Positions 4,417 to 51,743 of a stretch of DNA of 64,000 nucleotides are shown piece by piece. The DNA is taken from positions 1-64,000 of the forward strand of contig JABANP010000190.1 of assembly GCA_013115135.1 (NCBI GenBank). The letters are read 5' to 3'. Position 1 is the stretch's first letter. Each line of letters begins with the position of its first letter. This DNA comes from Perkinsus olseni. Lineage: Eukaryota > Perkinsozoa > Perkinsida > Perkinsidae. The notes beneath the pieces are model-generated. The model had not been told where the DNA came from and searched no databases. It saw nothing but the letters and a program-made list of their open reading frames with translations. The position numbers were made by a program, and so were the translations under genes.

Positions 4417-6911
4417 ATGATAGAGCGTCTCAAGTCACTATTCCGGCGACCGACGAAAGATACCGATGCACTCATGCCTGTGACAGAAAAGGTCGACCCG
4501 ACCTCGCAGAAAGATATCCGAATTTATGGTATCTTTTTGGTACTATCAACCTTGCCGGTGCATCTTAAGTTGCTCCTGGCGACTCCCGGGTTAACCTATC
4601 TTAGCCCAGAGTCCCTCGGCGTATCTTTGGTCTTCATGAGTGGCTTGCTTGCATTGGTCGCATCTTTCTGGGGAAGATACTCTCGGATAGATAATCTCCT
4701 CTGGGCGTACTCGACCGTCATCTTGGCCGTTTTTGCCGGGGTAAAAAATTACCGGAATCGGATCACCACGGAATTCACCGGTTATAGAGATCCTGAGGAA
4801 AGGACGGTAATAAAGGGGAGGAAATGGGGGCAGGAGAAAAGGAAAAATTTGGTATTTTTCGTAAAATTTCCACGAGAATTTTCGAAAATTCTGCTCAATG
4901 ACCAGAGCGACGAATACTCTGAAAAATTCTGAAAATTTCTCGATCCCGTTCGAACTGAGATATTCAGGAAAATATATGATAATTCTATAAAAAATACGTT
5001 ATTCTCGATTGTGCTACTGATTCTCTTGCCCTCCAAATAAATTTTTTTGATAAGAAATGATTAGGGAAATTTTCGTAAATTTTCCGAAATTTTCGTATAT
5101 AAACTCATTTGCCGGTGCAACCGTGTAGGACACGGCATCTAATGCAAAGATTGGTTTCTACATCTTCCTGTGGGCTGGTGATCTCAGTCATAATGACCGA
5201 GGATAATACTTGGGTAATTTCGTATTGTTGCTACTCACCTTCTGCAGTGTAGCGGAGAAGTCACAGTAATGCAGAGCACTTAGAATCAGCTGGCGACGGA
5301 AGAGTTTCGACGACCGCTATTGTGTAGAATTGGCATGACAGCCGGCGGCGCCCTCCTTGCCGTGAGACGTTGCGGTTGTACCACGTAGAAGGGAAGCTCC
5401 TACCGAGAAAAAATCGCCCAGTAGTTCGACTTTCCAGTAGATCTAAGTCTCCCTTTCGGACGGGCGAGTAATGCGCCAGTTGGTATGCTCCTCGTTTTGG
5501 TCACAATTATCGAGGTTACGAGTATCCGAGGTTGACGCGTGAGTTTCATGAAATTAGTCGGGCTGAAGATTCCAGCGGTGGTGATTTTCGTTTTCGAGAT
5601 CGAACCTAGGTTTTTACACACGCTAGGATTTCCCTTTTTCCTCCGGCGTTACTCGAACTTCCTGACAATTTTTTGGAGAAAAAAAATTCACCCTTCCGCG
5701 GTTTTTCAAGTTTCCGGAGGTCACAAAATTTCGTGACATAGATTTTATCATCTCAGAGAATCTTAGGTTGACCCATGAAATTTCCGGAACGACATAGCGG
5801 TGAGTGTGAATATCTTCCGGCCTCTTTGCAGAAAAAATTATCCGAACATTATTTTTCCCGGAAAAAATTTATCGGAAATACTTTTTTTCAGAAGAAATTG
5901 TTCCGGAAATAATTTTTTAGGGAATAATTTTCCGGAAAAATAAATGATTTACAATAAATTCACAATAATTCATAATGGATAATAAATAATTCTCTTCAGG
6001 GCCTCAGCACCCTCTGCGTTGTTCTCGGCCTAGTTCCGCCAGCAGCAGCCGTCGCTGCGAATCTTATCATTGGTGACGCGCGCGGAGACGTTACGGGGTT
6101 GTGGTTAAGATATGCTACCAGATTGAATGTATGGCTCACTTTCCCGTTGGTATCTTTCGTCTGTGTGTATTACAAGCTTCAACCTCCTCTGTATTGTGCA
6201 ATAATATGCTTGCCCGCTTTGACCTCGTTGTTAAGATACCCAAAGATACGCCTCATTGTATTTTTCATAGTCGCCTTCGCAGACGTAAAATTTCTCGGCG
6301 ATTTTCCGTCTGCGTTTTTATCGACCTTTCCGGTTTTATACTCGCTCATGCCTGCAGAATATCTTTCGACCTTTGATATTCCTCGGAGTGATAAGATATC
6401 TTCCTAGTGAGTGTCTGCCGCTAGTCGGAGGTATCTTTTGGTCCTGTCTTTCGCATGAATCGACCTTCATTGTGTGGTCGTGCGGGTATCTTTTATCATG
6501 CATACTGTGGGTGCCTTTCGGTATCCTCTATACCTATTTCGTGGCGCGCGGGAAAGGGGATAATTTCGTGGCGCGTGACGGGAGTAAAAAGGAAAGGGGA
6601 TCGCGGTGTGCTAAACGAGAAGGTCCGGCGATTTTATATTCGCCTAATGCGCGAGGAGGAATCCAGGTAATCGAAAGGTCCCCGGATCGAATCCCCCCAG
6701 CGGCATTTTTAGGGTCTTGGCGGCGGCCCTGTAGTGTACGCGGATGATGATGGAGATACTGCCCATGACTTCTATGAGGCCAATGATAGAAAGGGGTGAT
6801 ATTATCACGAATTCGGAATTATTTACCCGCATATAATCGTCCTTCAGAGAGCTGCAGAAGCTGCCGAGGTCCAAGCTGCATCGTTGTGATGCGAAAAACG
6901 AAATTTACTGA
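4417..6911 (+). CDS. Multi-pass membrane protein, multi-exon, family not recognised
   Basis: The ATG at 4417 starts a 108-codon first exon with three hydrophobic segments (for example LGVSLVFMSGLLALVASFWG). It ends in phase 0 at 4740 before GTAAAAAATT. The next clear exon starts at 6000 after TCTCTTCAG and adds at least four membrane segments. Between about 6370 and 6405 coding moves to the next frame (a missed intron or a one-base indel) and continues with more hydrophobic segments to 6666. Exons 6713-6795 (acidic, YADDDGD) and 6848-6911 follow in consistent phase to a TGA stop. Introns are 6667-6712 and 6796-6847. One or two more exons may lie inside 4741-5999 (for example 5129-5177, with a FYIFLWA segment). 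I cannot name the family; transporter-like topology is only an impression. Confidence 0.6.
4741..5999 (+). other. Long first intron of the membrane-protein gene, possibly with hidden exons
   Basis: Starts GTAAAAAATTACCGG and ends TCTCTTCAG. Flanks at 4850-5100 and 5650-5990 are AT-rich with repeated GGAAAATTTTCG/AATTTTTCCGG words. The GC-richer middle (5129-5400) has candidate exons at 5129-5177 and 5269-5321 with plausible phase. Apart from those I see no gene. Confidence 0.45.
6667..6712 (+). repeat. 46-bp intron with tRNA-like 3' half, sense orientation
   Basis: Begins GTAATCGAAAGGTCCCCGG and ends TTTTTAG. It is clearly related to the intron at 8450-8499: the first 19 bases are identical, then [A/G]TCGA[A/T]TCCCC, then CGRCATTTTT. 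The middle matches a tRNA B box (GGTTCGANTCC) followed by a T run. Flanking exons join in phase 0. Confidence 0.7.
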
Positions 6912-7219
6912 ACTATTCTTAACCGCTGAAAAATTGCAATTCTACACACCTTCGCTCCGCTGTTACATTTTCTATTATCGAAAGATTTGTGTTGATCAGG
7001 ATGGTATCTTGAGGTTGAGCTTGGGTCGCATCTTTTCTATAGAAAGGATATGTAGGGGTATCTTAGGTCGATCCATGCAAGATATGCATTCAACCCGAGA
7101 AGTCGATCGATTTCTGTTTGCATTCCTCTTCCCCGAAGCTCGCGGGTTTAAAGGATTGGTATCTTTGGTTCATCCATGCAAGATACGGAATAGGTCACTT
7201 TTAGCCTCTCTATTTTAGC

Positions 7220-8602
7220 ATGAGTCCCCCCTCGTTAACGTTTCCACGAGTCACTTGTCTTGGCGCCGAAGAACCTCCTCTTTTGCCGCCGCAAATTTTG
7301 TACGCGGGAAAGATTTATTCTCAAGACGGTAATCTCAACTTATTTCGTATCTTGCATGCTTCAACCTAAGATTCGTAGGTTCCGAAAGGAGACAGGGAGG
7401 CGGGGATCGTCGTCGTGTATGGAATGAAGCCACTCTCCGACGTCTGGTCACGACTAGGTGTGTTGGGGAATTGCAAGATTGCAAGATTCCGTGGGAGTGC
7501 TTAGGCATCAGCTTGAACAACAGCGGGATAGAATTGAGCGAAAATGTTCAGCGGAGCGAAGCCGGAGTCAGCTGCGCAAAGCTTCGGTAAGTATCTTAGA
7601 GGTTGACCTTGCAAGATACAAAACAGGTTGGGATTGCGGCATTCGACTTCCTTCCAGGTCAAGCGCCCTGCAGCAACAAGAAGAGACCCTCAGAGCACTG
7701 GAAGAAATGTACGTTTAAAAATACCCTCGCTGGGGGTCGAACCGGGGACCTCTTGCTGGGCAGAGCTCCTCATCCTCGTCGTCATCATCAGCAGTGAAGG
7801 AAGACACTCGAGGGACGTCAAGGGCACAGGGAAACCTTTTAGTGGTAGGAGGAAATTTTCGCGATTTTTTTCATAACCAGAAAAAAATTCCGTGAAATTT
7901 TGGGAATTTCCCCTAATTTTTTCGTCGGAACGCGAAAAATTAATGCCTGAGAATATCTGCCGGTGGGATTCGAACCGAGGGTCTCTTGTTGTGGTATTTT
8001 TGTCATTCTCGTGATCCTGTCAGAGGAAGTACGTTTCATGGCTGGCTATGGACCAAGAAACGGATATACTGTAGGCGTATCTTAGCTCCAACCTCGTCGG
8101 ATACAGAACAGGTCAACTTGAGCGCTTTCTAGGCGTTGTGAGTTATGTGACACTGTCGACCGAAATGATGCAGGAGCTCGATGGAATCTTAAGGACCTAG
8201 CGGTTCCAGTGAGGTTGACCTTTTCGTATCTTCCAAGCAAAAGATACTCCACGCACGGCGTAGGTTTTGGAGGCCTCATTGTCACAGCACGCTAAAACGG
8301 TTGGCCACGTGTGGGCGCTGTCGCAGAAGGAAGGTGCGTTGAGGAAATGTAAGTGAATATAAGACTGCAAGATTTGCAGGGAGAAGGATGAGCCTCCCTG
8401 CCCCATCAACTACGATATTCAGAACTCTGACTTCTTCCAGTTCAAGCAGGTAATCGAAAGGTCCCCGGGTCGATTCCCCGCGGCGACATTTTTCCGCAGT
8501 TCCTCGGCTGAAGTCGTCCGACGGAGATCCCTGCAGAGTTCTTCGAGATTAACACTGCCTTCTACTCGTAGGACATCTCTTTCTGTGAAATCGATCGCGT
8601 GA
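7220..8602 (+). CDS. Charged, partly coiled-coil-like protein, about ten small exons, not recognised
   Basis: ATG at 7220. Exons 7220-7328, 7379-7457, 7505-7586, then 8024-8070, 8133-8208, 8264-8348, 8380-8449 and 8500-8602 all join in frame with GT-AG introns and end at TGA 8600-8602. The middle (7659-7712 and 7795-7852) is less sure, although one phase-consistent chain exists. The protein has a Pro-rich start, an Arg/Glu/Gln-rich helical stretch (RHQLEQQRDRIERKC) and a Ser/Arg-rich tail (SSRLTLPSTRRTSLS). Introns are very short, one only 31 bp (8349-8379). No catalytic motif or known family is recognised. The precise phase match over eight junctions makes a real gene likely. Confidence 0.6.
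7709..7794 (-). repeat. tRNA-like element within an intron, reverse orientation
   Basis: The host intron on the plus strand runs from about 7709 or 7713 to 7794 (ends CATCATCAGCAG). On the minus strand it reads AGGTCCCCGGTTCGACCCC, then AGCGAGGGTATTTTT. This is the same element as in the introns at 6667 and 8450 but inverted relative to the gene. The B-box consensus GGTTCGANNCC is matched. Confidence 0.6.
7853..8023 (-). repeat. Intron carrying another reverse tRNA-like 3' half
   Basis: The intron ends GATCCTGTCAG at 8023. Its AT-rich left part resembles the long intron at 4741 (AAATTTTCGCG, AAAAAATTCCG). At 7950-7997 the minus strand reads GGTTCGAATCCCACCGGC after ACAAGAGACCCTC, a B-box-like T arm. 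The donor (GTGGTAGG or GTAGGAGG near 7853-7856) is uncertain. Confidence 0.5.
8450..8499 (+). repeat. 50-bp intron with tRNA-like 3' half, sense orientation
   Basis: GT at 8450, AG at 8498-8499. The first 19 bases are identical to the intron at 6667, although the two lie in different genes. B-box-like GGGTCGATTCC is followed by CGGCGACATTTTTCCGCAG. Flanking exons join in phase 2 and stay open to the stop at 8600. Confidence 0.7.
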
Positions 8603-8627
8603 TCGATTTAAGATACGCCTGCCGGAT

Positions 8628-9143: not shown

Positions 9144-9226
9144 TTTTAGAAATGGGCACTGTTGGGATTGAGCCTGGGTGGGATGAATGACAGGTGGGAG
9201 TGCTAACCTATTGAGCTAGTCGAGTG
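9144..9226 (-). repeat. tRNA-like sequence upstream of CRIPT
   Basis: The minus strand shows an A-box-like TAGCTCAATAGGTTAGCA and, about 35 bases on, a B-box-like GGCTCAATCCC. Spacing is tRNA-like, but I cannot build clean acceptor and T stems. It is a degenerate tRNA or tRNA-derived SINE head rather than a functional tRNA gene. It lies in the gap before the CRIPT start, possibly in the 5' UTR or promoter. Confidence 0.45.
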
Positions 9227-12374: not shown

Positions 12375-14041
12375 TCTGACAACGAGAAAAGATACGCACA
12401 TCCAACCTCGAAGATACGCGTATCTAAGGTCGAAGCTAGGCGCTTTCAAACTCAAAAGATACGCTCGGGCACAGCTCTACACTCACACCACAAAGCCTCG
12501 CAGACCACTAAAATGCAATACATATATAATAAATGAATTTCACGCGTATACAATTTTGAGTTCACTCTTGCCTTGTTCAATCTCGCTCGCCCAGATGATC
12601 GATTATGATCGAACCTTCGACCTGTGTAAAGATTCATGCACTTTCTCACTTCGCTTTCCTTCTCTCTCTTCCTGGGTGAATCGGAACATGCCAGTCGCTC
12701 GGAAGCCTCCATCATTCTCGCACTCGGAAGAATTCGGGTGATGGTATCTTAGCTTACCTAATCAACCTCGCTTCAGCAAAAGATACCACTGGAAGCGATT
12801 TTACCATATGAAGTTGACATGCTAGTGAATGGGCCGATGAGGTCTTCGGCATCCCTCGAATCGAGGGGTCGGAAGGAAGCTCCCTTCGACAACCTAGGTC
12901 GACACGGAATAGAAAGATACTCCCAAATCATAGAAATGATATCGTCTTATCAAAAGATACTCTGCATACTCATAAATAATATATTTCTATCGGTTATTGT
13001 CCATGACCTCGGAAGATACTTTTAGCTCGAAAATACGATTTTCGCCAACCCTCAAAATGATTCGAGAATCTCTATTCTCGTGATAACCTCACGTCGAAAA
13101 AATTGGTAACAGCGATAATATTCAACCCACAACCTTCTTTCGACGACACGGAAATTTCCGCGAAAAATTTCGTTTCAACTAAGTCAGCAAAACAGCAAAA
13201 AACGACACGGGACTGATCGTTATCAATCTTGAACGCGGTGAGTCAACCTACTCCCTCCGGAAAATCCACAAGATACGAATCAATCCAAGAAAACACTGCA
13301 ACGTATCTTGCGCGATTCGCGCAACCCCTGCGTCGACCTCGGATACCCCAGCGTATCTTTTCCGTATATTACAGTTTGTACAGCTCAGCCTCACTCATCG
13401 ACCTCGGAAGCGTGGATGCTGTCTTCGGCGGAAGAACCGCTGGGTTCCGACAGAAGGACATGAACAATAACAACACTGGAAAGCCGGAAAAACGAGAAAT
13501 TCGCCCTTGGAGTAAAATCTCTAAAAATTTAAGATTTTCCCCGCGATTTCCTTGATTACCGCCTAATTCCTATTGCAGCCAAACATAACCTGCGTAGTCG
13601 CTGATACACAAAGTCGCGGGTTGACTTTTTGCTGTACGAATGAACCCGAAGAAAATAAAAATTAAATTTCTCGTCCGTGAAATTCCATGATCAACCTAAG
13701 ATACTCTTCGGCATCCCGGAGTTCAAAAACTCAACAACAGGTCGATAAAAACGATGGAATTTACTCGGACTTTCTCTTTTCAGATTGAGCCGCTCGCATT
13801 CGAACCGCCTTCGATTGAAGGGCTAGCGTTACCTACGAGGAGGTCCCAGGTTCGATCCCCACAACCCGCTGTATTCTACACTATAAAGATGATACGGATC
13901 GCAGTCAGGTCGACGCGGGCGGGAAGTTCGAATGCTATGAGAAAGAGGAAAATTATCGAAGAGGGTGGCAAAACACCAACCCGACCGAAAAAAGAAAGTT
14001 GGGGAAAAGTAAATACAAATTTTATCAAAAATCATCACACG
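12375..14041. other. Gene-like stretch with unresolved exons
   Basis: Dense AAGATAC motifs and several GT-AG pairs suggest transcribed DNA. Candidates are minus-strand coding at 12620-12715 (Lys/Arg/Glu-rich), plus-strand coding at 13373-13500 after the acceptor TATATTACAG, and plus-strand Lys/Arg-rich coding at 13891-14009. A plus-strand B-box-like GGTTCGATCCCC sits at 13851-13862 just before that last segment. Competing frames on both strands prevent a confident model. Confidence 0.35.
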
Positions 14042-20707: not shown

Positions 20708-21115
20708 CTACCCGACAGGTTTGAGAGCTAGCTGGGTTTTCTGGTCAAGGTTGATGATCAGGAAGCCGCTAAATAGAAAAATATCGTGAAAGGCTTTCTT
20801 GGGCAGAGACAGACCGCAACTTTTCTTCACATCTTTGCGATAACTCTCGAACATGGCTTCGGACTCAAGGGTCATATGGTAGTAGTGAAAGCATCTTCCT
20901 CCATCGATAGGGAAAGTGGAAGTCTTAGTAGAGTAGGGAGAACGACCGTGCGGTCCTGATGGATCGAAACATTCTGTCTTGATCTCGATGTCAGAAGTTG
21001 GGTCAAAATCGAAAGTGATGCGGTAGTTCTCGGACCAATTGTACTGGTATTCGATACGAAAAGCAAATGCAGTAGCCACCAACAACGGAAGGAGGAGCGT
21101 CTGGATGGTTGCCAT
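20708..21115 (-). CDS. Secreted small protein, family A copy 2
   Basis: 135 residues with the signal peptide MATIQTLLLPLLVATAFA. Cysteines lie in KTECFDPS, GGRCFHYY and KSCGLSLPKKAF. The C-terminal block reads IFLFSGFLIINLDQKTQLALKP. The acidic-aromatic N-terminal half (YQYNWSENYRITFDFDP) is closest to the copy at 30148. ATG at 21115. Family-wide spacing of the three cysteines and the conserved end argue for selection. No known domain is recognised. Confidence 0.75.
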   Translation of the reverse strand: MATIQTLLLPLLVATAFAFRIEYQYNWSENYRITFDFDPTSDIEIKTECFDPSGPHGRSPYSTKTSTFPIDGGRCFHYYHMTLESEAMFESYRKDVKKSCGLSLPKKAFHDIFLFSGFLIINLDQKTQLALKPVG

Positions 21116-21748
21116 GCCGAGATAAGGTGAAATCCTGAAGGCAAACGAGTGGCCACGGTGTCTCGTGACCGAAAACCAAGTGTTCTCTCACAGGCTAACA
21201 ATTGGAAACTGCTTCCACAGTCGTAGCACTTCCAATGGAAGTCTTCCATGGCGCCGTTGAATTGTAAGCACGCGTGTAGTCGGTGGAGCCGCTCCGCCGA
21301 AGCGATACTGGCATTAGGCTGGTCTCAGATGGGATGCTCTAACTACCGGACTCTAGGGTGAGACTAGAGGCCGCAGTACGAGACCTCATTCGGCGACAGT
21401 ACCTCGCGGAAAGCTGGCACACGATGATATCGTTCTACATTCGATGTAGGTCATGATGACGGAGACAAGACATCCTGTATCAAACAAGGGACAGTCGCCG
21501 AGGGATGTATCTTAGGTGTCTCCGAATCTGCGCCCCTCAAATCTTGAAAACCTCAATCCTGGCTGACGACATCGAATCTGACTGACTCTGAAGCCAGCTC
21601 CCATCAAAAACGTCGAGCAACCCGACCAGGTAGAGAAGCCGCGCGCTGAATACCATTCAGTGAATGGTTCGAGTAACACTTGTTCGCTGCTAGCGCGCTA
21701 GCCGGTCGCTAGATCCTAACTTAGGAAATGCAGAAACCCAACTAAGGT

Positions 21749-31345: not shown

Positions 31346-31679
31346 TGTTGGTTTATCAGGCGCGGTACCCCGAGTGGCGACCAAGATATTTACAAGATTC
31401 TAGTCGAGTTGGCTAATGCGGTTGTTTAATAAGCGATGCACCCGGGTACGATTCCGGCTTGCTGTACTTTTGTATTTGGTTGCTGTCCCATCATTGCGTA
31501 TTTTATAGCTATTTATATTATCGATTACGCTATGGAGGGAGGGGGAGCCGTTGTCCTATATCGATTGATAAATAATCCTATTATCGGCCTCTGATGTCTG
31601 GTGTGGAGTCGACGAGTGATATGTCAATTGTGGGTGAGGATCACCCCTCGGTATCCCAATCCATCGGGACCAGTGAACA
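31346..31679 (+). repeat. 5' LTR containing the Gag-Pol start
   Basis: 334 bp, TG...CA ends. The ATG at 31594 and the next 28 codons lie inside the LTR. A tRNA-like segment (A-box-like TTGGCTAATGCGG, B-box-like GGGTACGATTCC) occupies about 31400-31466. AT-rich GTATTTTATAGCTATTTATA at 31499 could include the promoter. Confidence 0.9.
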
Positions 31680-34600
31680 TGGTGCACCGTCCGGGAAAGA
31701 TGGAAAGGGACCGGGGGACCTTCTCCGCAGGGCTATCGCAGCCGCGGCCCAATCGACCACCGAGACAGGCTGGACGTGGTATAGTGATAAACTAACATGT
31801 CTACAGATAGTTGAGCACGCCATTGGCGCCAACCCGAAATCTACTGCGATATCCCATATGCAATTCGTGGGAGCCGAAGGCAAGCCTATAGGCATTTCGC
31901 TGAAAGCTCTCTCGAAAAGCTGGGAGATTCAACAACACTGGGATGGTCCTAGGGAAGAGGGTTTGGAAAACCTTCGTTCTCGTAAGGGCTCCTGGCGTTG
32001 GACGAAGTTTCGCAGATTGTTGGATTTCTCACTTAGCGGTGTTCAGGGCAATGCCTCACCGTTACGTCTATTAGCGTATAGTTTCTTCCTACCGCGTTCT
32101 GTAGTAGCTGAACTACGTCAGATAGTCGTAGATCACATTGTTACAGCAGACGCAGAAGGAAAACCCACGCTCAATAGAGAAGCTGACATCTTCTCGTGGA
32201 AGGATATTCGCGAGCCAGATGATGTGAGTTCGAGCTCTACTGAGTATATCCTATCGGTCAAGAAGGCTTATGAGAAGTGGGTTAAGCAATGCTCCGAGTT
32301 CTGCAAGATAGCCGAAGACAAGATGACTCAGCTAGAGTCCTGTGAGGACTATAGTAACCCAGTTTTACTCCTACGACGATGGTCGAGCCTATACAAGAAG
32401 GCTGGTCATGTGGAGTTTAGTAGGGTAGTTGAGGAGGAAGCCTTCCTATGTGGCAAGCTTTCAGAAACGAAAGGTTTGACCCTGGACTGGTCATTCCGTG
32501 CCTGCTTGTTCGAACTATTCCTACAGAGCTGCCCGCGAGCCCATAATCATGACTCTGGGTTTGGCTCTTTGGTCAACGACGTTAGGAACAAGAGCACTTC
32601 TCCTCAAGACGTCCTCTCCAAGCTCCAAGCTACGGCTCTGCAGAACAAGGAGTCTTCTATTGATGATTACTTAGGGTTGGTCACTACTAAAGTGACTTCC
32701 CGAGAGAATCATCGGCCCAAGCGCCAATCTGATTATCAGAGTGCTATCCCCATGGCCAAGCGGAGCAAGACGCAGCCAGGTTATAAGAACACGGCACGGG
32801 ATACACAGAAACGGGCCAGTGAGGTCTTTCGCCTTCCGGCATCCGAGATTGCTCTAAGGAAGGAGCGAGGCCTCTGCTTCAAATGTAATCAACACGGTCA
32901 CATAGCAAGCGAGTGCCCTAAGAAGACTCCTTACGCTGTTGAGAAGAACAAACAACGTATCTCTGATGCTTCTACTAATAGTCAATCTGCCTACTTGCAG
33001 GATAGTGTAGAGTTGCCCACAAATGTTAATAGTGGTGGACGGATGGGGAATGCGAATGAAACCGATGCTTCAGTAATGCTGACTGATAATAAAGATCAGC
33101 AGAAGCTAGCTGTGACAACAGTGATGGGCTCGACTTGTCCTTGCCCGAAGTCTGGCCAATACCTCATCCTACGCGCCGGGATAGACTCCATGGCGGGGGT
33201 GAATATGGTTAAACAAGGCATAGTTAACAAGCTTAAATGCACAGAAAGTCGGACGCAGAACCCAGTTGTCATACATGGAGTGAATAGTGTTAGCAAGCTC
33301 GATAGAGAGTGTACGATATATATATCGTTACACGATCGCCAAGCGAAGCTCTCATTCGCAATATGCAGAGACATCAGCCTTCCGAACTCAGTGGACTTGT
33401 TGATAGGCAAACCAAGCTTCGGTCTACTCGGCATCGATCTTGTCCTTCCGAGCCCAGCAGAGCAAGATGCCATCAAGAAGCCGAGCTTGAGTAGGACTAA
33501 GGAAGAGATGATTCGATACGGAGAGACATACCTAGTGGAGCTCTTACAGAAACCGTATGCTCTCCCAGGTGCTTCCAAGTACCAGGGGACATTACAGAGG
33601 CTTGAGAAGGCTCCCGATAGTATTGATGTATCTGATCATCCGAGACAGTTATACAAGTATGTAATAACGTGGAACGACAAAGACCTTAGAGCCCCAAAAA
33701 GCTCAGTAGGAGCGCTCGGGGGGTCGTATGATTACTCTTACCCGATCTTGAATAGCATGACTGACAGTCAGCAACGGGAATTCCAACTAGAAGTTGATAA
33801 CTTCATTAAACATAAATGGTGGGTACCCGAAACTGACGATCAGAGATTGAATGACTCAGCAGACATAATGGGGAACGTTTGCACCTTCCCAGTGAGTCAA
33901 TCCTTATTGAAATCAACAAAGGTGCGACCATGCACCGATTGTCGATCACTAAACGCAACATTGCCCCAGGCATCGTATGATGGATTTCCGATATTCGAAA
34001 GTATATCTCTAGTGAGGGCACGATGGAGTTCAGACTACACTCTTGCCTTCCTCGATTTGAGTAAAGCGTTTTATCGCCTACATTTAGGCAATAACAAAGC
34101 GCTACGTATACTATCGAATAACAAAAGATATACATGCCATAGAGTAGCATTTGGCCTAATCTTTGGGCCTGCCGCCCTCAGTGGAGCAGTTTTAACCCTG
34201 CTTAACACTAGTTTCTCGGCACTGCTAGGCCGAAAGATTGAATGCAACTCAACACGAGACTTCATCGATTTGGTACCAGATTTATTCGTGGTACCTTATT
34301 ACGATGACGTGGTAGTGTGGGGTAACGCAAGGCTGGTCCAGAGATTCACGGACATCCTAGTGGAAATAGCTCCATTGATGGGAGCAGAGTTCCCCGAGAC
34401 TAAGCAAGATTGGCTCACGAACAAAGAACAACAAGGCTCAACGCCAAATAGAGTTTATAGACACCTCGGTTGTAACTGGTCTCGGGACGAGGAGGGCAAC
34501 CTGAGGATAGAATGCATTGTTCCTTCACGGAGCTCAATAATCATCCCGAATCCGATGAGCCGCACAGACGCCTTCAGGCTGGGGGGTTACCTCTACGATC

Positions 34601-37317
34601 CTCTGAGGCTCCATCCATCTGCGAGGCTCTCAGCTGATGTGCTGCGCAGATGGTTTGGGAAGTCTGAAGGAGGAAATAAGAGGAAGGCTTGGCAAAAGAA
34701 ATGGCCCCTTACTGACTCGACATGGTCCATGGTCAGCAAATTGATGGATAATGCATATCTCGATGGCTACGGATCATGCCAGCATAACCAGATAGGATCG
34801 CCGCGGTTCATAGTAGCCTTCTGTGACGCTTCGAACGAGGGATGGGGCTTGCTTCTCTATGCGGTGGAAGATGAATATGACCCATCATCAGATGTCTTTC
34901 CGCCTAAGGAAAAGCTTATCGAAGCACATGCCGGTGAATGGGACGATAAGAAAGTGAATTATCATGTGAACCGGAAGGAGGCTATTACGTTACATCGAAC
35001 AATGAAGGCCATTACAGAATGGTTACCTAGGTTCATGTTAGACGTCAGACAACGCCTCCAGGTATCCATTTACTGCGATAATAGCAGTGCAGTGGCTTGG
35101 GCTAATAAAGGCTCGGTCTCAATGCGTTCGTATGACAAGGTAGCCTTGCAGCGTCTATCTGAGTCAATGAGCGACATGAGAAGGGACTGCCAACTGCAAT
35201 TCAGTGTCACCTTGAATGTAAAATACATCCAGGGGTTGAAGAATACAATCGCAGATCGACTAAGCCGCAGTGATATCCGAAGTCATATGTTGCCACCGTT
35301 GAAGTCGAATACCCGTAAGACTCCTACACCGAAGGAACCTGATGAAACAGTAGTTATGATAGCAACCCCTTCGGGGGAGCTCGGTCTTGTTGATACTGTA
35401 GGATTACCTCATCGTGGTGTATGGAGTAGTCATGTGATGGACCCGATGTATGTACCTATGAGAATAGACAATGATCGTGACGAATTGCTAGATGTACTCG
35501 TAGCCTCACCGCTCGAGGGAGCTGCTGCAACTTCGGACTACGAGAGCCTTGTGGGCTTGGGGAACTGGCAGTTGTCAGATATATTGGATCATCTGAGAAG
35601 AGCTTTTAAAGATAAAGCCTTTCTCGAAAAAGAAGAAGTGACCCAAGGAGTCACCTACCTTGATTTGATGAGCTCATTACGACCCGATATATATCCCGAC
35701 TGCAGACCTAGTACCAAGGCTCAGAACCTGGCTGAGGGATCATCAAAGGGTCCATTATATAGATGGAACAAAGAGCAAGAGATTTTACAGGCTATTGACC
35801 CAAGAGAGGAAAAGCCACTTTGGTGTTATGTATTAATCACACATAGGGCCCAGATGTGGGCTATATACAAAGTGCACGATCATCCTCTGGCTGGGCATAG
35901 AGGTCTACCACGAGCTGTATTCTCCATGAGGAAGCTTCAGCTCTGGTGGCCGACTCAGGTATCTGATACAAATAGATTTATAAGATCCTGTAAGATATGT
36001 CAGCTTGCGAAGTTGCATGATGTTCCAAGTACGCAACCACTAGCTTATAGACGCTGGCAAAAGCGTTTTGAAACGATCCAGATCGATTGGATGGGACCTT
36101 TTGCCCCTACGACGCAGAACGACCCTTGCCCGCTTCTATCGCCAGACTCACCCGTATACTATTGCATTATGATCTGTGAAGCCACTAAGGTCATGATGGC
36201 GATACCATCTCGCTCGAATGATACCCGATGTCTGATAAGTTGCTTGATGCAATGGATAGCGGCATACGGCCCGCCGTGTACCCTGCAAATGGACAACGCG
36301 GGTGCACACCATAATGCATCAGAGCTTTACCCTTTTCTGCAATATTGGGATATACACCCTCGATATGGCCTCTCTAGACGACCGGAATCGCAGGGCCTTG
36401 TGGAACGAGCGATAAGGGACCTGAAAGATGGTATAAGGATGGCTAATATACAAACAGCAGCATCTACCCTACCTTGGTGGGCTGCAGTACAAATTGCCAC
36501 AGTTGTTCATAACAACTCGATGAAGTCTGGGATAGTTCCGTGCTCACCAAATGAACTTGCACTAGGGGATGAGAATTCTCTGATACGCAACCTTGGGCGA
36601 GGGGGCGGTGAGACGCCAGAATCGATCTGGGGGACAGTCAACTCTGTTGTGAAGGACCTCTTCGAAGCAAACCAGGTAGCGGTAGCAGAGCGTGCCCTTG
36701 CAGCTGAAACCCAAGAGTTGGCCAAGTCTCAACCGAAAGCAAGATTCGTACCTGGACAAGAAGTGAAAATGAGCCGAATTGTTAATGGCAAGAGAGAACT
36801 GAGTGGGCCTTACAAGATCCTTAGTATCAGTAATGACAACCCAATGGTATTTCAGCTTGAAGGCCATAAGTTTCCAGTACCGATAAGTCATCTTCTGCCC
36901 TTCAACATGAGTGTTGAACGAGATAGATACGACCATGCGGCGAAACCTGGCATTGATAGACTATCAGTAAGTCTGAAAGATAAAGCTCCTTGGGGAATTC
37001 CCCTCGACGAAGCAACTAAACGCCATTGGGTGGTATACCGTGTATTAGATGAAACAGATGAGTCTCCAGAGCCAATAACGACGATCTATATTGCACAAGT
37101 CATTGCTCATAAGGCAGATCAGAAACTCCTTGTTCAAGGACTTGACAGTACAAATAGAGGCTCGTGGAAGCTACCACCGAAAGGCCATCGATCTGATGCA
37201 CAGCACCTCATTCTCTATGATGACGTGGTGGGAAGAAAGGCTTTCCTTCCCACGGCGAAGAATCGCCTCCCAAAGATTGTTCAAGAGTGGCTCAATTCTG
37301 TAGGCGTTTCATGCTGA
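31594..37317 (+). CDS. Gag-Pol polyprotein of the 31.3-kb element
   Basis: 1907 residues in one frame. A Gag-like N-terminal region is followed by a CCHC knuckle (CFKCNQHGHIASEC) at residues 428-441. The protease position is at about 529-590, with DSMAG where DTGA/DSGA is usual (Asp 531) and LLIGKPSFGLLGIDLVL as the C-terminal strand. The reverse transcriptase has LDLSKAF (Asp 821) and YYDD (904-905). RNase H has CDAS (Asp 1078), RKEA, YCDNS and ADRLSR. Integrase has HPLAGH (from 1430) and a C-x2-C, then catalytic Asp 1498, Asp 1567 and Glu 1604, and SGPYKI at about 1737. All catalytic residues except the protease Gly/Ala pattern look intact. The ORF is uninterrupted, so Gag and Pol are apparently made in one piece. 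Confidence 0.92.
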   Translation: MSGVESTSDMSIVGEDHPSVSQSIGTSEHGAPSGKDGKGPGDLLRRAIAAAAQSTTETGWTWYSDKLTCLQIVEHAIGANPKSTAISHMQFVGAEGKPIGISLKALSKSWEIQQHWDGPREEGLENLRSRKGSWRWTKFRRLLDFSLSGVQGNASPLRLLAYSFFLPRSVVAELRQIVVDHIVTADAEGKPTLNREADIFSWKDIREPDDVSSSSTEYILSVKKAYEKWVKQCSEFCKIAEDKMTQLESCEDYSNPVLLLRRWSSLYKKAGHVEFSRVVEEEAFLCGKLSETKGLTLDWSFRACLFELFLQSCPRAHNHDSGFGSLVNDVRNKSTSPQDVLSKLQATALQNKESSIDDYLGLVTTKVTSRENHRPKRQSDYQSAIPMAKRSKTQPGYKNTARDTQKRASEVFRLPASEIALRKERGLCFKCNQHGHIASECPKKTPYAVEKNKQRISDASTNSQSAYLQDSVELPTNVNSGGRMGNANETDASVMLTDNKDQQKLAVTTVMGSTCPCPKSGQYLILRAGIDSMAGVNMVKQGIVNKLKCTESRTQNPVVIHGVNSVSKLDRECTIYISLHDRQAKLSFAICRDISLPNSVDLLIGKPSFGLLGIDLVLPSPAEQDAIKKPSLSRTKEEMIRYGETYLVELLQKPYALPGASKYQGTLQRLEKAPDSIDVSDHPRQLYKYVITWNDKDLRAPKSSVGALGGSYDYSYPILNSMTDSQQREFQLEVDNFIKHKWWVPETDDQRLNDSADIMGNVCTFPVSQSLLKSTKVRPCTDCRSLNATLPQASYDGFPIFESISLVRARWSSDYTLAFLDLSKAFYRLHLGNNKALRILSNNKRYTCHRVAFGLIFGPAALSGAVLTLLNTSFSALLGRKIECNSTRDFIDLVPDLFVVPYYDDVVVWGNARLVQRFTDILVEIAPLMGAEFPETKQDWLTNKEQQGSTPNRVYRHLGCNWSRDEEGNLRIECIVPSRSSIIIPNPMSRTDAFRLGGYLYDPLRLHPSARLSADVLRRWFGKSEGGNKRKAWQKKWPLTDSTWSMVSKLMDNAYLDGYGSCQHNQIGSPRFIVAFCDASNEGWGLLLYAVEDEYDPSSDVFPPKEKLIEAHAGEWDDKKVNYHVNRKEAITLHRTMKAITEWLPRFMLDVRQRLQVSIYCDNSSAVAWANKGSVSMRSYDKVALQRLSESMSDMRRDCQLQFSVTLNVKYIQGLKNTIADRLSRSDIRSHMLPPLKSNTRKTPTPKEPDETVVMIATPSGELGLVDTVGLPHRGVWSSHVMDPMYVPMRIDNDRDELLDVLVASPLEGAAATSDYESLVGLGNWQLSDILDHLRRAFKDKAFLEKEEVTQGVTYLDLMSSLRPDIYPDCRPSTKAQNLAEGSSKGPLYRWNKEQEILQAIDPREEKPLWCYVLITHRAQMWAIYKVHDHPLAGHRGLPRAVFSMRKLQLWWPTQVSDTNRFIRSCKICQLAKLHDVPSTQPLAYRRWQKRFETIQIDWMGPFAPTTQNDPCPLLSPDSPVYYCIMICEATKVMMAIPSRSNDTRCLISCLMQWIAAYGPPCTLQMDNAGAHHNASELYPFLQYWDIHPRYGLSRRPESQGLVERAIRDLKDGIRMANIQTAASTLPWWAAVQIATVVHNNSMKSGIVPCSPNELALGDENSLIRNLGRGGGETPESIWGTVNSVVKDLFEANQVAVAERALAAETQELAKSQPKARFVPGQEVKMSRIVNGKRELSGPYKILSISNDNPMVFQLEGHKFPVPISHLLPFNMSVERDRYDHAAKPGIDRLSVSLKDKAPWGIPLDEATKRHWVVYRVLDETDESPEPITTIYIAQVIAHKADQKLLVQGLDSTNRGSWKLPPKGHRSDAQHLILYDDVVGRKAFLPTAKNRLPKIVQEWLNSVGVSC

Positions 37318-37348
37318 CGCAAAAATCAGCGCGCGCCTTGGGGGGGCG

Positions 37349-37682
37349 TGTTGGTTTATCAGGCGCGGTACCCCGAGTGGCGACCAAGATATTTACAAGA
37401 TTCTAGTCGAGTTGGCTAATGCGGTTGTTTAATAAGCGATGCACCCGGGTACGATTCCGGCTTGCTGTACTTTTGTATTTGGTTGCTGTCCCATCATTGC
37501 GTATTTTATAGCTATTTATATTATCGATTACGCTATGGAGGGAGGGGGAGCCGTTGTCCTATATCGATTGATAAATAATCCTATTATCGGCCTCTGATGT
37601 CTGGTGTTGAGTCGACGAGTGATATGTCAATTGTGGGTGAGGATCACCCCTCGGTATCCCAATCCATCGGGACCAGTGAACA
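37349..37682 (+). repeat. 3' LTR
   Basis: 334 bp, identical to the 5' LTR except one T for G (37607; GTT versus GTG, both Val). It again carries the Gag start, giving a 69-codon orphan ORF from 37597 that reads into flanking DNA. Confidence 0.9.
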
Positions 37683-46869: not shown

Positions 46870-47007
46870 TGTTGTCATGTCGCAGGCGCGCACGCCATTG
46901 TTTGTGAGACTGTCTTCTGCTAGGCTTAAGTGATTTACCATTGATCTGTTGATAAGTTATTGAGATTAACCTCTCCTATATCTGGGTATTGTGTTCCCTG
47001 GATTACA
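46870..47007 (+). repeat. 5' LTR (138 bp)
   Basis: TG...CA ends. One visible difference from the 3' copy (A versus G in TGTTGTCRTGTC). Its last base is the A of the Gag ATG. Confidence 0.95.
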
Positions 47008-48080
47008 TGGTGGAGAACTCCTTGGCTGATTCTGCGGAGAACCTTCCTCCCGCTGTTGTTAAAGTTTGTGCTCTACTTGGTGTTAAGGACAGTACTTTGC
47101 TTCGGTTCCTCCCTGATGCGGAGATTGACAAGTACTGCTCCAAGTTTGTTGGTCATGGAGCGGTGAGTTTAGAAGAAACTCTATCGTTCCGTTCTTATGT
47201 TGCGTCGTTGAGGTCTGCCCCTGCTCAGGCTGCGACGACTTCCAGTGATTTTGGTGCTGTATCCTTTGCTTCTGGTGATGATCATACTGCTGATGAGGTT
47301 CCTACTATGTCGCGGATGTTGCAGATCGTCAAGTCTATTAAGCTGCCGAACGAGAGGTGTTACGAAGGTTACCAAGATGACCGTAGTGTGACTTGGTTCA
47401 TTTCAGAACTCAGTAACGAAGCTCGACTCTATCAGCTCGATAGTAAAGGATGCTGGCTGCTGCTACAAAGTTCATGTTCTGCTTCCGTGCGCACAGGTCT
47501 GTTACAGTATGTTCAACAAAAATGTGCTCCTGGCAAATGGTTGGTTGACTTTTCAAGGATGTCAGGATTGGGTGTTGACTACCTTCGGTCTACTTACAGT
47601 GCTAGTGATGATCCTTCCTTCCTTGAGGACCGGATATCTTCGCTGAGACAAAAAGGCGATGAGAATGTGTTTCAGTACTTGGATAGACTCAATGTTGTGG
47701 TAGCTCAAGCTCGACTCTGCGGCCTGAATGTGTCTGAAGCTCAAGTGTGCAAATACTACAGGCAAGGTTTGAGGCGTGATTCGCTTAAAGCAGCAAATTA
47801 CCACTTCTCGCATGTAGTTGCGGCATCAAAGCTCGCCACTGAGTTGTATAACTTTGGACGGCTCAATGGTACACGATTCCAGGAGGATCGTGATGATAAG
47901 ACTACTTCTACTGGTAATGGCTCCAAATCTGGTTCTTTTTTTCTGAAGCTGAGTCCGAGTACATTAGGAGCAACAAGATCTGCTTTAGGTTTGCTAAGTG
48001 GGGTAACTGTGATAGAGATTCTTGCCATTTCAAGCACCTTCCTCTACAACAAATCAAGGATGGTCTGGTTGCTAAGGTGA
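47007..48080 (+). CDS. Gag of the 46.9-kb element
   Basis: The first ATG spans the LTR/PBS junction (A at 47007 in the LTR, TG from the PBS). 357 residues of mostly helical Gag (AENLPPAVVKVCALLGVKD and onward). The zero frame runs past the slippery site at 47936-47942 for 46 more codons to TGA 48078-48080. So most ribosomes would make this form, which lacks the zinc finger. The zinc finger is only in the -1 frame. Confidence 0.8.
   Translation: MVENSLADSAENLPPAVVKVCALLGVKDSTLLRFLPDAEIDKYCSKFVGHGAVSLEETLSFRSYVASLRSAPAQAATTSSDFGAVSFASGDDHTADEVPTMSRMLQIVKSIKLPNERCYEGYQDDRSVTWFISELSNEARLYQLDSKGCWLLLQSSCSASVRTGLLQYVQQKCAPGKWLVDFSRMSGLGVDYLRSTYSASDDPSFLEDRISSLRQKGDENVFQYLDRLNVVVAQARLCGLNVSEAQVCKYYRQGLRRDSLKAANYHFSHVVAASKLATELYNFGRLNGTRFQEDRDDKTTSTGNGSKSGSFFLKLSPSTLGATRSALGLLSGVTVIEILAISSTFLYNKSRMVWLLR
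47936..47942 (+). promoter_or_regulatory. Programmed -1 frameshift heptamer T TTT TTT
   Basis: Seven T's positioned as X XXY YYZ relative to the Gag frame. After a -1 slip, translation enters the frame that carries a CCCH zinc finger (C-x8-C-x4-C-x3-H at about 47981-48029), the protease and RT. That frame is open from 47942 to 49591. Confidence 0.75.
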
Positions 48081-49591
48081 ATTCTACTTCCACTACTACA
48101 CCCTCAGTTGATAGCAAACCGTCTGCTTCAGGAACAACATCATCTGCTGCTACTGGTCGTCCTTCGGCCGATGGTAACATCAAGCTTTGCGGCAGTACTT
48201 GTAGTTCGAACCACACGTTACGTGTTCCTCAACTTTTGACTTTTATGGTAGAAATTGACACCGGTTCCAGCTGCAGTATTGTTACACGCAAACTTGAGAC
48301 TGCGTTAACTCAATTAGGGTTATTGTTGGGCTCTGTTGGTGAGATGAAGACTTACCACACGGCGTTGGCGTCCTCTTTATTACATGCAGTAAGGCGAATT
48401 ACGGTTTGTTTGGCTTTGTTGGACGCTGATATGGGAGTTAATTATATTCTCTGGGAGCCCTATGTTATCGAATCTGACCCGCCAGGTTGTGATGGTTTGT
48501 TTGGCAGGGACGTGGTTAGCTGGGGTGGTGGCGCTAATAATGGCCTTCAGGTTGTGACTATTGATGGACCAATGGATATTTCGCAGTTCTCGTGCACTTT
48601 TAATGAACTACGTGAACTGCGCGGTTATCAGTTCAGTTCTGATGAGCTTTTACCACCTGATCGACAAGCAGTTGCTGAAGAGATCCTTTACCCTGTGCGA
48701 GATGGTAAGGTCGACTTGGATGACTCGATGGCCACTTTACCTGATGACTGTGATATTGGTAATACACTCAAGGTCGGGACGGGAGCTGGGAGGAAAACCG
48801 TGGAGGAGATTCCTTTTGATAGTGTTCCTCTTCCCGATTTATCTCATCCAACTTTTGCTCCCTGTGATGATCCGATCGATCGTGTTCTATACCAAAATGG
48901 TTGGTATCGTGTTTCCGTGCATAAGTGTGCTTCTACTAACAGTTTTTATTTTGCTGCTGAGATTTCTCGTGAGATTTCCGCTTGGATGGACCAGTTATCG
49001 TTTAAACCGGTTAGTAGAGTACATTGGCGCTGGGCCAAAGCCTTTTCGGAAGCCAAGACCGAGTGTTTGCGCCAGATCAATAAGTTCATTGATGATGATA
49101 AGCTCCGTCGTGTACCGTCTAGTCAGAATCTTTTCAGGAGTAATTACTACCCTGTAAAAGGGCGTAAACGATATCGTATTGTTCTGCCATTGCTAAAGTT
49201 TAATCAAGCGCTACGTTATATCTGCAGATTTGATCCTATTGTGAATCCGCAGCATAGAATGAGCGTTGCCTTACATAGGATGCGATTTGCCCCATCATTA
49301 AGTTTACTTGATATAAGTGATGCGTATATGAATATTCGTGTTTTAAGTTCATTGTCTGATAAGTTACAACTGTGGTATCATGGTAGTGCTTGGGCCTTTA
49401 GATATCTCATTTACGGTAGTAGCTGTGCGCCTCCGACTCTTGAGTACTCTGTCCAGTTTCTTGAGAGCCTCTGTCCATCTCCTTCGAAAGGTCTTCCACC
49501 GGCATGTAGTTTTATGGATGATTTGGTGAAGCCCCGTCATTTACATCATCAACAAGCAGGCCAAGCGGTTCGAAGCGTTGCAGAAGACTGA
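47942..49591 (+). CDS. CCCH zinc finger, protease and reverse transcriptase (Gag-Pol -1 frame)
   Basis: After the slip site comes ICFRFAKWGNCDRDSCHFKH, a CCCH-type finger where Ty3-type Gag usually has a CCHC knuckle. The aspartic protease follows with IDTGSSCSIV at about 48256. RT motif A is SLLDISDAYMNIRV (about 49300), motif B is LIYGSSCAPPTLEYS, and the catalytic box is FMDD (about 49512) rather than YxDD. The frame ends at 49591. The continuing Pol lies one frame over, open from 49530, so a second shift or an indel is needed after FMDD. Confidence 0.8.
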   Translation, partial: SEAESEYIRSNKICFRFAKWGNCDRDSCHFKHLPLQQIKDGLVAKVNSTSTTTPSVDSKPSASGTTSSAATGRPSADGNIKLCGSTCSSNHTLRVPQLLTFMVEIDTGSSCSIVTRKLETALTQLGLLLGSVGEMKTYHTALASSLLHAVRRITVCLALLDADMGVNYILWEPYVIESDPPGCDGLFGRDVVSWGGGANNGLQVVTIDGPMDISQFSCTFNELRELRGYQFSSDELLPPDRQAVAEEILYPVRDGKVDLDDSMATLPDDCDIGNTLKVGTGAGRKTVEEIPFDSVPLPDLSHPTFAPCDDPIDRVLYQNGWYRVSVHKCASTNSFYFAAEISREISAWMDQLSFKPVSRVHWRWAKAFSEAKTECLRQINKFIDDDKLRRVPSSQNLFRSNYYPVKGRKRYRIVLPLLKFNQALRYICRFDPIVNPQHRMSVALHRMRFAPSLSLLDISDAYMNIRVLSSLSDKLQLWYHGSAWAFRYLIYGSSCAPPTLEYSVQFLESLCPSPSKGLPPACSFMDDLVKPRHLHHQQAGQAVRSVAED

Positions 49592-51743
49592 TCCAGCCTC
49601 GTGTGGTACTTATCGTCAGGCGTTGAAGGTACTTGGTGCTCTTACTAATGATAGTGATGTACTGCCATTGAATTTGCTTCCGATTAAACATTCTTTGATC
49701 GGCTTGCTTGCATCATGGCGATCTTGTGACTCTGCTTCCTGGGATGATCCTCTGCCTAATGCTGTGGGTGAATGTTTACTGGATTGGCTGAGATTGGTTG
49801 TGAATTCCGTGTTACCACGTGTGCCTCGCTATGTTGATCCTGCTGCCGATCTAAGGGTATTCACAGACTCCAGTAAGTACATGCAGTGCTATCGTGTATA
49901 TTTTGCTGTTGATGATCCTGATACAGCTACTCCACTATTTCAAGAGCAGTTTGTATTGTCTCGTGGTCAACAGAACTTCCACATCAACACGCTTGAGTTG
50001 GCTTGCGTCTGGAGGGCTCTGAGCCGTCTACAGTTATTGCGCTGTGACACTGGCTTAGAGTTCACCGGCATTATACATGTTATGTTGGACTCGGCTACGG
50101 CTCTGAGTCTGCTTACGACTGGTCGGGTTGCCCGTGGTCCCTTTCAGGCTTTGAATCAAAAGTATCTTGACTTGACGCGGTCGGCGACTGAAGGCCTCAA
50201 GATTCAGTATCACTTTGTTCGATCTGGTTCTAATGCGGCTGATGTCGGCACTCGTCATGATGTTCTCCAGCGTGTTCTCGATTTGCGAGAATCGCTACGT
50301 CTTGAGAAGATTGAGACGGCTAAGATGGAAAAGAAAGGTGCGGTTCCAGATTCGGCCCTTGTAGTGCGTATTCGTGACCGTTTTGGATACGTCCGTGATC
50401 GTCGAAACGACGATGAAGATGCTTGCGTTGTTGGTCGCAAACGTCGACGTGTATCTGATGCTGCTGCTGGTGATAATATTGTTACTGGCAACGCACGGAA
50501 TGGTTCTCATGGTATATTCAATAATGCCCGCCCTGTTCGCTTGGATGAGCTCGATTATGCTGGTACGGTGTTAAGTGGACCTCTGCTTCAGGAGTACTTA
50601 CAACAGCGTATCGGAGCGATAGATGGGGTAGTTGAGCCTATGAGGATTGAAGATAAGGATATGCAGCTCGCTCTGATTCGTGCAGCTCGTAATGCGGCTC
50701 ACGATGGGATTGATGCTACCTTGTCGCGGCTTCAAAGGTCTTTCGTATGGTCTAATATGAAAGCTATGGTAAAGTCTGAGTGTGATGGGTGCACTCTTTG
50801 TAGTGTAACTAAAGTTGCACCTGGTGATAAATTTTTCAAGCAACCGCCAACAGTTGCGAGGGTTCTTCCAGTCCCTTTTCATAAAGTTCAGATGGATGTA
50901 CTTGGCCCTGTTGGAGGTTCTGCACGGATGTATGTTACTACTCTCTGCTGTTGTTATACTGGTTATGTTGCTACTCGTGCAACTCTCCGTTGTCCCACTT
51001 ATTCGGATGTGTTACTCCTGCTCAACTGGGTCTATCGTATTTTTGGTCATGTACCCGAAATTGTCCAAAGTGATAATGCTTCGATATTTGTGAAGGCTAG
51101 TCAAGGTGTACCCTTCACATGGCAATTTTCTCCTGTTCGAGGAAGTGTGTCGAATGGCATGATTGAACGGAAGCACCGCTGTATCAATACTAAGCTTCGT
51201 CGTTTAAATTTCCAGGGTGTCAAGCCCACTACTGATCGAGAGTGGCAAGATATGTTGGATAAGATTGTGGGTGAGTTGAATGCTTCACCAATTCCGAAGG
51301 CTGGTGGTTTGTCTGCTCTAGATGTTTTACTTCGATATCCTCCTACAGATTTGCTAACTGGTCTACCACGGTTACTTCCAAAGGATTCTGTTAAGATATG
51401 GGATGCGTATCGTACGAAGTGTGCAGAGCGTTCAGCTAATGCTATTGGTGTCAAAGATCGCCGAATTGAGCCTGGTCAAGTTGTTTATTTAAGGTGTGAT
51501 GATCACGCTCCTAAACTTGCACCACGGTATACGCCGGTTACTGTTGAAGCTATCCTGGGTTCTAATCGTATCAGGCTAACTGATGGTACCATTGTTCACT
51601 CCAAAGATTTGAAGGTATTACAGAATCATGTTCGTGAAGACTCTGATGATGACGATGGCAGTGATGATGATAGCGAAGATAATACTAGCTCTACTACTAG
51701 TGCTAATGGAGATGATAGTCGGATTGATAATGTTGCTGATTGA
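49530..51743 (+). CDS. RNase H and integrase of the 46.9-kb element
   Basis: Back in the Gag frame. RNase H carboxylates occur in FTDSSK (about 49860), NTLELACVWR, VMLDSATA and NAADVGTR. The integrase zinc region has AAHDGIDATLSRL and CDGC-TLC, but the first His of HHCC appears to be Arg. The core has QMDVLG, QSDNAS and GMIERKH, with 30 residues between the second Asp and Glu. A C-terminal region with PRYTPVTVEAILGSNRIRL is GPY/F-like, and an acidic tail ends at TGA 51741-51743. Confidence 0.85.
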   Translation, partial: SPVIYIINKQAKRFEALQKTDPASCGTYRQALKVLGALTNDSDVLPLNLLPIKHSLIGLLASWRSCDSASWDDPLPNAVGECLLDWLRLVVNSVLPRVPRYVDPAADLRVFTDSSKYMQCYRVYFAVDDPDTATPLFQEQFVLSRGQQNFHINTLELACVWRALSRLQLLRCDTGLEFTGIIHVMLDSATALSLLTTGRVARGPFQALNQKYLDLTRSATEGLKIQYHFVRSGSNAADVGTRHDVLQRVLDLRESLRLEKIETAKMEKKGAVPDSALVVRIRDRFGYVRDRRNDDEDACVVGRKRRRVSDAAAGDNIVTGNARNGSHGIFNNARPVRLDELDYAGTVLSGPLLQEYLQQRIGAIDGVVEPMRIEDKDMQLALIRAARNAAHDGIDATLSRLQRSFVWSNMKAMVKSECDGCTLCSVTKVAPGDKFFKQPPTVARVLPVPFHKVQMDVLGPVGGSARMYVTTLCCCYTGYVATRATLRCPTYSDVLLLLNWVYRIFGHVPEIVQSDNASIFVKASQGVPFTWQFSPVRGSVSNGMIERKHRCINTKLRRLNFQGVKPTTDREWQDMLDKIVGELNASPIPKAGGLSALDVLLRYPPTDLLTGLPRLLPKDSVKIWDAYRTKCAERSANAIGVKDRRIEPGQVVYLRCDDHAPKLAPRYTPVTVEAILGSNRIRLTDGTIVHSKDLKVLQNHVREDSDDDDGSDDDSEDNTSSTTSANGDDSRIDNVAD

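Follow-up and report, generated by a model that had tools for sequence, protein, structure and literature searches.

Why do two introns of different genes in one stretch of DNA from Perkinsus olseni, a parasite of clams, begin with the same 19 bases? The stretch (contig JABANP010000190.1, positions 1 to 64,000; hereafter the window, 64,000 nucleotides [nt] in all) had been the subject of a preliminary description, which took the pair to be introners, mobile sequences that become introns on insertion, and named a tRNA-derived short interspersed nuclear element (SINE) as a plausible source. Our analysis indicates that these introns are probably members of a large, old introner family of P. olseni whose body corresponds to the 3' half of a tRNA. 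The shared 19-mer, GTAATCGAAAGGTCCCCGG, lies exactly at positions 6667 and 8450, as first described, against an expectation of 0.04 in shuffled sequence, and no third match was found in the window at up to three mismatches. Only one phase leaves each junction frame open, phase 0 for 6667-6712 and phase 2 for 8450-8499, confirming the phases originally assigned. Both introns are present in a duplicate locus (L041, C289), from which the first differs at 1 of 46 nt and the second at 6 of 50 nt. Across the joined exons 6600-6666 and 6713-6799, five of the six codons changed between the loci are synonymous and one is non-synonymous; across 8384-8449 and 8500-8592, four of five are synonymous and one is not, the exon limits having been picked by the analyst in both comparisons. 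A coarser count over 150 nt per side placed six of nine downstream changes at codon position 3 for the first intron and five of five for the second, and showed no codon phasing upstream of either.

The element extends far beyond the window. When the genome (61.48 megabases in 968 contigs) was searched with reversed patterns as controls, GTAATCGAAAGGTCCCCGG was found with at most two mismatches at 156 places (82 forward, 74 reverse; control 0), so the idea that the pair might have no further copies fails; 66 distinct copies were catalogued. The core pattern AGGTCNCNGGTTCGATCCC matched 962 places at up to one mismatch (control 1), and a longer core pattern matched 1,184 places at up to two (control 14), counts that may include tRNA genes. 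The core is carried at about a thousand well-conserved places. Its centre is a tRNA B box, and the B-box pattern GG[TA]TC[GA]ANYCC had 153 sites in 264,888 bases comprising the window and the fetched loci (identical contexts collapsed), the latter being enriched for the pattern because they were retrieved via the 19-mer; four permuted patterns had 2, 4, 0, and 5 sites in the same bases. Within the window the pattern matched 8 times against 0.95 expected, a count that one palindromic site enters twice, once per strand. The variant B box of the second intron is one mismatch away from the pattern.

To establish whether such elements are spliced, we used public protein models and conserved-domain continuity in the place of RNA reads, together with a spliced aligner built for this analysis that allowed GT-AG introns only. 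A kinase gene (L085) aligned with P. olseni protein P0093 at 373 of 379 residues through 10 introns, and a phosphonopyruvate decarboxylase gene (L001) aligned with P. marinus P0096 at 266 of 291 residues through 8 introns and with P. olseni P0097 at 121 of 122 residues over its last exons. An NHP2-like gene (L049; G000:C934) matched the public P. olseni protein P0003 at 127 of 127 residues through 4 introns, with 1501-1547 removed. Element-introns interrupt nearly invariant protein motifs (the slash marking the junction) at NYLHTSNI/VHRDIKP in the kinase, at VPSRQAL/GTACQTKR in NHP2, and at DDRSVR/CVNGTRV in a poly(A) polymerase (L084). In a DEAD-box helicase (L059), motif VI (RIG/RTGRAG) is readable solely after splicing, and the C terminus of Rpn3 (L039) reaches the end of the Rpn3_C profile (66/66) when spliced. 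A kinase piece spanning four element-introns matched Pkinase at 3.7e-35, and PAP_NTPase went from 0.0042 in the read-through open reading frame (ORF) to 3.2e-16 once spliced across DDRSVR/CVNG.

In a Pfam search of 40 ORFs around elements, 9 had any family at E≤0.01, some of them below cut-off. We pursued the families whose domain match had an element at its margin, namely the helicase, the poly(A) polymerase, Rpn3, and DUF3431, the last of which is not counted here; the other matches were to a bromodomain (L002), importin (L057), UCH (L075), glutaminase (L079), and DUF745 (L095). Genes with element-introns thus comprise those for the kinase, the decarboxylase, NHP2, the poly(A) polymerase, the helicase, and Rpn3, along with the two window genes. 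Wherever genes were mapped by protein, the copies are introns of unrelated genes, lie in both orientations, and often make up an entire intron of 43–56 nt. Judged by protein and domain continuity, the tested elements are evidently introns, and the introner interpretation, taken to mean that a single repeated element makes exact introns in unrelated genes, is well supported. With regard to annotation, the P. chesapeaki model P0095 jumps from FEAPSM to VHRDIKP, skipping an exon beside an element-intron as P0003 also does, and because public Perkinsus models skip exons in this way, these short introns are unevenly annotated.

The element is strongly associated with introns in the three genes mapped by protein (L085, L001, and L049). 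Exact B boxes number 10 in their introns (2,212 nt) and 0 in their exons (2,391 nt), or 13 and 3, respectively, at up to one mismatch. With the discovery introns excluded, 10 of 19 introns hold a B box at up to one mismatch (7/9, 3/7, and 0/3 per gene) and 8 of 19 an exact one; the corresponding figure at up to one mismatch for random 50-mers of the window is 2.3%, a few of the compared introns being longer than 50 nt. The three genes were picked for holding an element, and a genome-wide share of introns is not derivable from them. Twelve element-introns measure only 43–56 nt: L085 1254, 1356, 1501, and 1803; L001 269, 1364, and 1501; L049 1501; those of L084 and L039; and the window pair. Because these contain little else, the element in such cases is the intron itself. 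Other element-introns are longer (61, 65, 85, 100, 203, and 229 nt), and in these the element could have entered an older intron, as would be expected if tRNA-derived fragments had landed in pre-existing introns and created none. SINE-like elements do often insert in introns. The twelve small introns argue against such an origin, since a 42-nt insert in an intron of at least about 40 nt would give more than 80 nt, and Perkinsus, reported to be intron-rich, has introns from 39 bp upwards, mostly below 100 bp (PMC3101222). Because these element-introns are so small, we regard prior introns as an unlikely explanation of the family.

Orientation was read by eye from the side on which AGGTC lies, because the B box is nearly palindromic. 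Ten element-introns, the window pair included, are sense, and seven are antisense: L085 765-849, 1254-1296, 1611-1710, and 1803-1853; L001 269-319 (one mismatch) and 1364-1414; and L039 1481-1536. Sense copies have the donor GTAATCG at the anticodon-loop end, and the stretch past their T run terminates in AG. The position of the donor inside the element varies, however, from GTAATC to the GTC of AGGTC (GTCGGC; L085 1356) or to an upstream GTGAG or GTAGG (L059, and L002 by eye). In antisense copies, GATTAC or GGTTAC precedes pyrimidines and AG (seen by eye in, among others, L005, L050, L055, and L060). All 22 introns mapped in the three genes fit GT-AG, the only class that the aligner permitted. 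Similar introns in unrelated genes might also arise by intron transposition, in which spliced introns are reverse-spliced into other mRNAs and then copied back. This route predicts sense copies only, whereas the seven introns above, mapped by protein or domain, are antisense; their existence excludes reverse splicing as the source of the antisense copies. Such an origin could persist only for the GTAATC sense subset, and as an account of the family we find it extremely improbable.

To lessen selection, we examined the anatomy of the element in 84 of 119 elements that lack the GTAAYC motif, taking one locus per duplicated pair; this set retains a few near-matches to the 19-mer and some near-palindromic B boxes read on the reverse strand. 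In the information profile of the set, signal is confined to the interval between about −15 and +26; both flanks are flat, with none upstream of about −16. The profile begins at −15/−14 with AA, corresponding to anticodon-loop positions 37–38, and continues through AAAGGTC and the B box; C at tRNA position 72 reaches 0.75, A at position 73 reaches 0.52, and a T run occupies +22 to +26. The succession of AGGTC, B box, about 13 nt, and T run follows tRNA spacing, which bears out the tRNA-like body originally described. The acceptor letters vary among elements, and the conserved features are those general to tRNA 3' halves. An A box or tRNA 5' half was found for 4 of the 119 elements, compared with 2 and 1 in control windows, which is no enrichment.

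tRNA-derived SINEs are defined by an internal B box, a tRNA-like body, and a T run, and are dispersed in two orientations. The P. olseni element resembles them in all these respects and differs in its length of about 42 nt, in having neither A box nor 5' half, and in showing no target-site duplication. Hence the tRNA derivation, B box, and T run of the SINE first proposed stand, while its A box, 5' half, and target-site duplication do not, and a complete tRNA-derived SINE is unsupported. Alternatively, a long interspersed nuclear element (LINE) could have mobilized a complete tRNA-derived SINE whose copies were truncated at the 5' end, losing the A-box half at insertion. This variant of our reading is consistent with the conserved B box and T run and with a LINE-type endonuclease-reverse transcriptase domain in the window (E 8.8e-05, below cut-off). 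It fits less well with the lack of enrichment of full-length copies, with the absence of target-site duplications, and with a conserved part that begins at the anticodon loop, and we judge it somewhat unlikely. tRNA 3' halves are fragments cleaved in the anticodon loop, and mature halves end in CCA. The element shares this 5' limit, but its DNA copies differ from mature halves in running into a T run, as a precursor or gene would.

Duplicated loci were used to estimate the age of the family. In 17 alignments of such loci (80–96% identical, overlapping sets), 43 of 43 elements are common to both copies, and no B-box insertion or deletion occurs in 19 pair alignments; from the 43 shared elements it follows that the burst predates the duplications. 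Divergence between duplicated loci is 13/473 (2.7%) in the B box, 20/473 (4.2%) upstream, 31/301 (10.3%) in the acceptor part, and 46/684 (6.7%) farther downstream. The B box is therefore the least diverged part, and mild constraint on it is possible, although the elements were themselves found by the B-box motif. This pattern would suit a functional signal, such as a splicing enhancer or a TFIIIC site, that is selected in introns and bears no trace of insertion. Nevertheless, the motif occurs in both orientations, which does not befit a strand-specific RNA signal; 9 of the 22 introns of the mapped genes lack it at up to one mismatch; and a full tRNA-spaced 3' half exceeds what such a site requires. 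We consider selection for a signal quite unlikely as the explanation.

Several results weigh against a tRNA-3'-half introner family, as do the longer element-introns listed above. Concerning splicing, the read-through ORF outscores the shorter spliced piece in Pfam for both the helicase (99.3 against 96.6 bits) and Rpn3 (48.3 against 20.8 bits, the latter below cut-off), so that support from these two genes lies in motif and profile-end continuity and not in score. A blind comparison of open frames at the 66 copies and at random GT sites did not separate the two (medians 103 and 102, p 0.18); because frames here are long by chance, the protein and duplicate-locus comparisons were used instead. 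The protein P0003 lacks an exon that is present in P0001, and public protein models may themselves be predictions. Concerning insertion, no empty site was found in the duplicated-locus alignments, so that gain was unobserved. Target-site duplications, proposed in the preliminary description as a check, were absent: direct repeats at the ends of the 22 introns measure 0–5 nt and are no longer in element-bearing introns than in element-free ones. Concerning tRNA ancestry, the elements show neither T-stem covariation nor a 5' acceptor complement; an Rfam search of 10 loci at E≤5 returned no tRNA family and only a tmRNA-model match to a 13-nt T-arm fragment; and one pattern search for a parent tRNA with the exact anticodon arm found none.

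A tRNA gene was rejected as the identity of the element, ARAGORN having called no tRNA gene in the window, Rfam no tRNA in the 10 loci, and the T stem no covariation. Because tRNA-spaced 3' features are present while the A box, T-stem covariation, and an Rfam tRNA match are absent, the element is, as far as its sequence indicates, a decayed tRNA 3' half and neither a tRNA gene nor a complete tRNA-derived SINE. The nearest anticodon arm is that of tandemly amplified tRNA-Arg(TCT) copies at 2–3 mismatches, which carry TTCTAATCCAAAGG; this likeness is a resemblance only. In the genome, tRNA-Ile(TAT), tRNA-Arg(TCT), and tRNA-Thr(TGT) genes form tandem arrays with units of about 166–186 bases (L009-L038; G000:C778, C823, and C179). 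The window itself has a tRNA-like sequence at 9150-9215 on the reverse strand with A-box- and B-box-like parts, recognized by eye and uncalled by ARAGORN.

These observations suggest how such introns may have arisen. The introner body would comprise the 3' side of the anticodon loop, the 3' anticodon strand, AGGTC, the T arm with its B box, the 3' acceptor strand, C72-A73, and the T run. DNA copies of tRNA 3' ends, supplied either by a tRNA-derived retroelement lacking an A box or by reverse-transcribed 3' fragments, would have entered exons as DNA via reverse transcription or repair. The LINE-type domain noted above (window positions 53361-54308) could have supplied the reverse transcriptase for tRNA-half copies. 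In a sense insertion, GTAATCG from the anticodon loop would provide the 5' splice site, and the T run with AG would provide the 3' one; in an antisense insertion, the branch site may be the anticodon end (GATTAC or GGTTAC), which precedes a pyrimidine-AG, while a GT close to the acceptor end would be recruited. Insertions spliced as introns at once would have been tolerated, and the family would have decayed afterwards. We tentatively suggest, while holding it more doubtful than the family itself, that tRNA 3' halves or unprocessed precursors were themselves mobile intermediates that, copied into DNA and inserted either way, supplied a sizeable share of a eukaryote's introns. This would be possible because one strand of the anticodon loop offers a 5' splice site (GTAATC) and the opposite strand a branch site (GATTAC).

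Table 1. Element-introns, flanking exons, and further element copies in the window.
Feature	Position	Strand	Remarks
Element-intron 1, 46 nt	6667..6712	+	Sense, phase 0; donor GTAATCG in anticodon-loop part; B box at 6684; acceptor TTTTTAG
Element-intron 2, 50 nt	8450..8499	+	Sense, phase 2; donor GTAATCG; variant B box GGGTCGATTCC at 8467; acceptor ATTTTTCCGCAG
Exon part 5' of intron 1	6600..6666	+	Frame SRCAKREGPAILYSPNARGGIQ; 5' limit chosen by the analyst
Exon 3' of intron 1	6713..6799	+	Stop codon at end; from duplicate-locus comparison
Exon 5' of intron 2	8384..8449	+	Frame RMSLPAPSTTIFRTLTSSSSS; 5' limit chosen by the analyst
Exon 3' of intron 2	8500..8592	+	Reads SSSAEVVRRRSLQ..; from duplicate-locus comparison
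Candidate intron from antisense copy	7709..7765	+	B box on − strand at 7733; element reads AGGTCCCCGGTTCGACCCCCAGCGAGGGTATTTTT; boundaries by eye
Antisense tRNA-3'-half-like element	7950..7990 (approximate limits)	−	B box 7966-7976
Additional copy	13841..13871	+	AGGTCCCAGGTTCGATCCCCACAACCCGCTG; from pattern searches

Other repeats accompany these features (Table 1). The palindrome AATCGATCRCGTGATCGATT, a second motif that recurs in introns, lies at 8589-8608 and has 374 genome-wide matches at up to one mismatch (189 forward, 185 reverse; control 0), a count that often includes both strands of one palindrome; it also lies within a 45-nt intron of L085 (2379-2423). A third motif, GTATCTTAGGTTGANC, occurs at 9991 and 13689 and exactly at 274 places genome-wide (control 0), some copies being arranged in tandem on C21 with spacings that are multiples of 38 bases; the L001 intron 113-192 holds a relative that has an inverted partner (..GATAC). 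A retrotransposon of the long terminal repeat (LTR) type at 31346-37648 has 300-base direct repeats that are 100% identical and is probably recent; its open frame of 1,913 residues includes a zinc knuckle and an integrase zinc-binding domain. A second LTR-type element at 46870-51964 has 138-base repeats that are 99% identical and an integrase zinc-binding domain. Between 18800 and 30700 lie several diverged copies, 60–95% alike, of a family of ORFs with their flanking sequences, and the one ORF tested there (20711-21187) had no Pfam match.

Introners have been found in 175 genomes, including Micromonas, Aureococcus, dinoflagellates, and others, and are mostly consistent with DNA transposition; 49 of 130 families have target-site duplications and 72 of 177 have terminal inverted repeats, and neither tRNA nor SINE nor Perkinsus is mentioned in the main text of that study (Gozashti et al. 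2022, PMC9860276). Like these, the P. olseni family is short, brings a splice site with it, and gives rise to exact spliceosomal introns across numerous unrelated genes of an aquatic protist. It differs from them in its tRNA-3'-half body, in showing no target-site duplication, and in forming introns in both orientations; inspection of the element alignment by eye, with no formal test, showed no terminal inverted repeats. In Amoebophrya, introner elements carry both inverted and direct repeats and depart from canonical splice sites (Farhat et al. 2021, PMC7789003); the two organisms are alike as alveolate parasites with repeated introns genome-wide, but the mapped P. olseni introns fit GT-AG under an aligner that allowed only those ends. 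Transposon insertion has been reviewed as a source of introns in Oryza, Drosophila, Oikopleura, and Zea (PMC3443670), among them a rice catalase intron (Iwamoto et al. 1998, as cited in PMC3443670). That intron was likewise gained from an inserted element, but it is a single plant case as opposed to the genome-wide family of P. olseni. The rice catalase transposon is reportedly a SINE. Among the matches listed for open-licence literature, covering titles and the starts of abstracts, there was no report of tRNA-derived introners or of introners in Perkinsus.

How new introns originate has long been asked, and the introners known so far mostly resemble DNA transposons. If our reading is correct, RNA genes would join the sources of introns through a tRNA-derived element that forms exact introns whichever way it is inserted, and intron creation by it would be testable with simple reporters. 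The element also gives a practical rule for checking Perkinsus gene models, and this one class of element may account for a good part of the lineage's introns, given its presence in 10 of 19 introns of the three mapped genes when the discovery introns are excluded.

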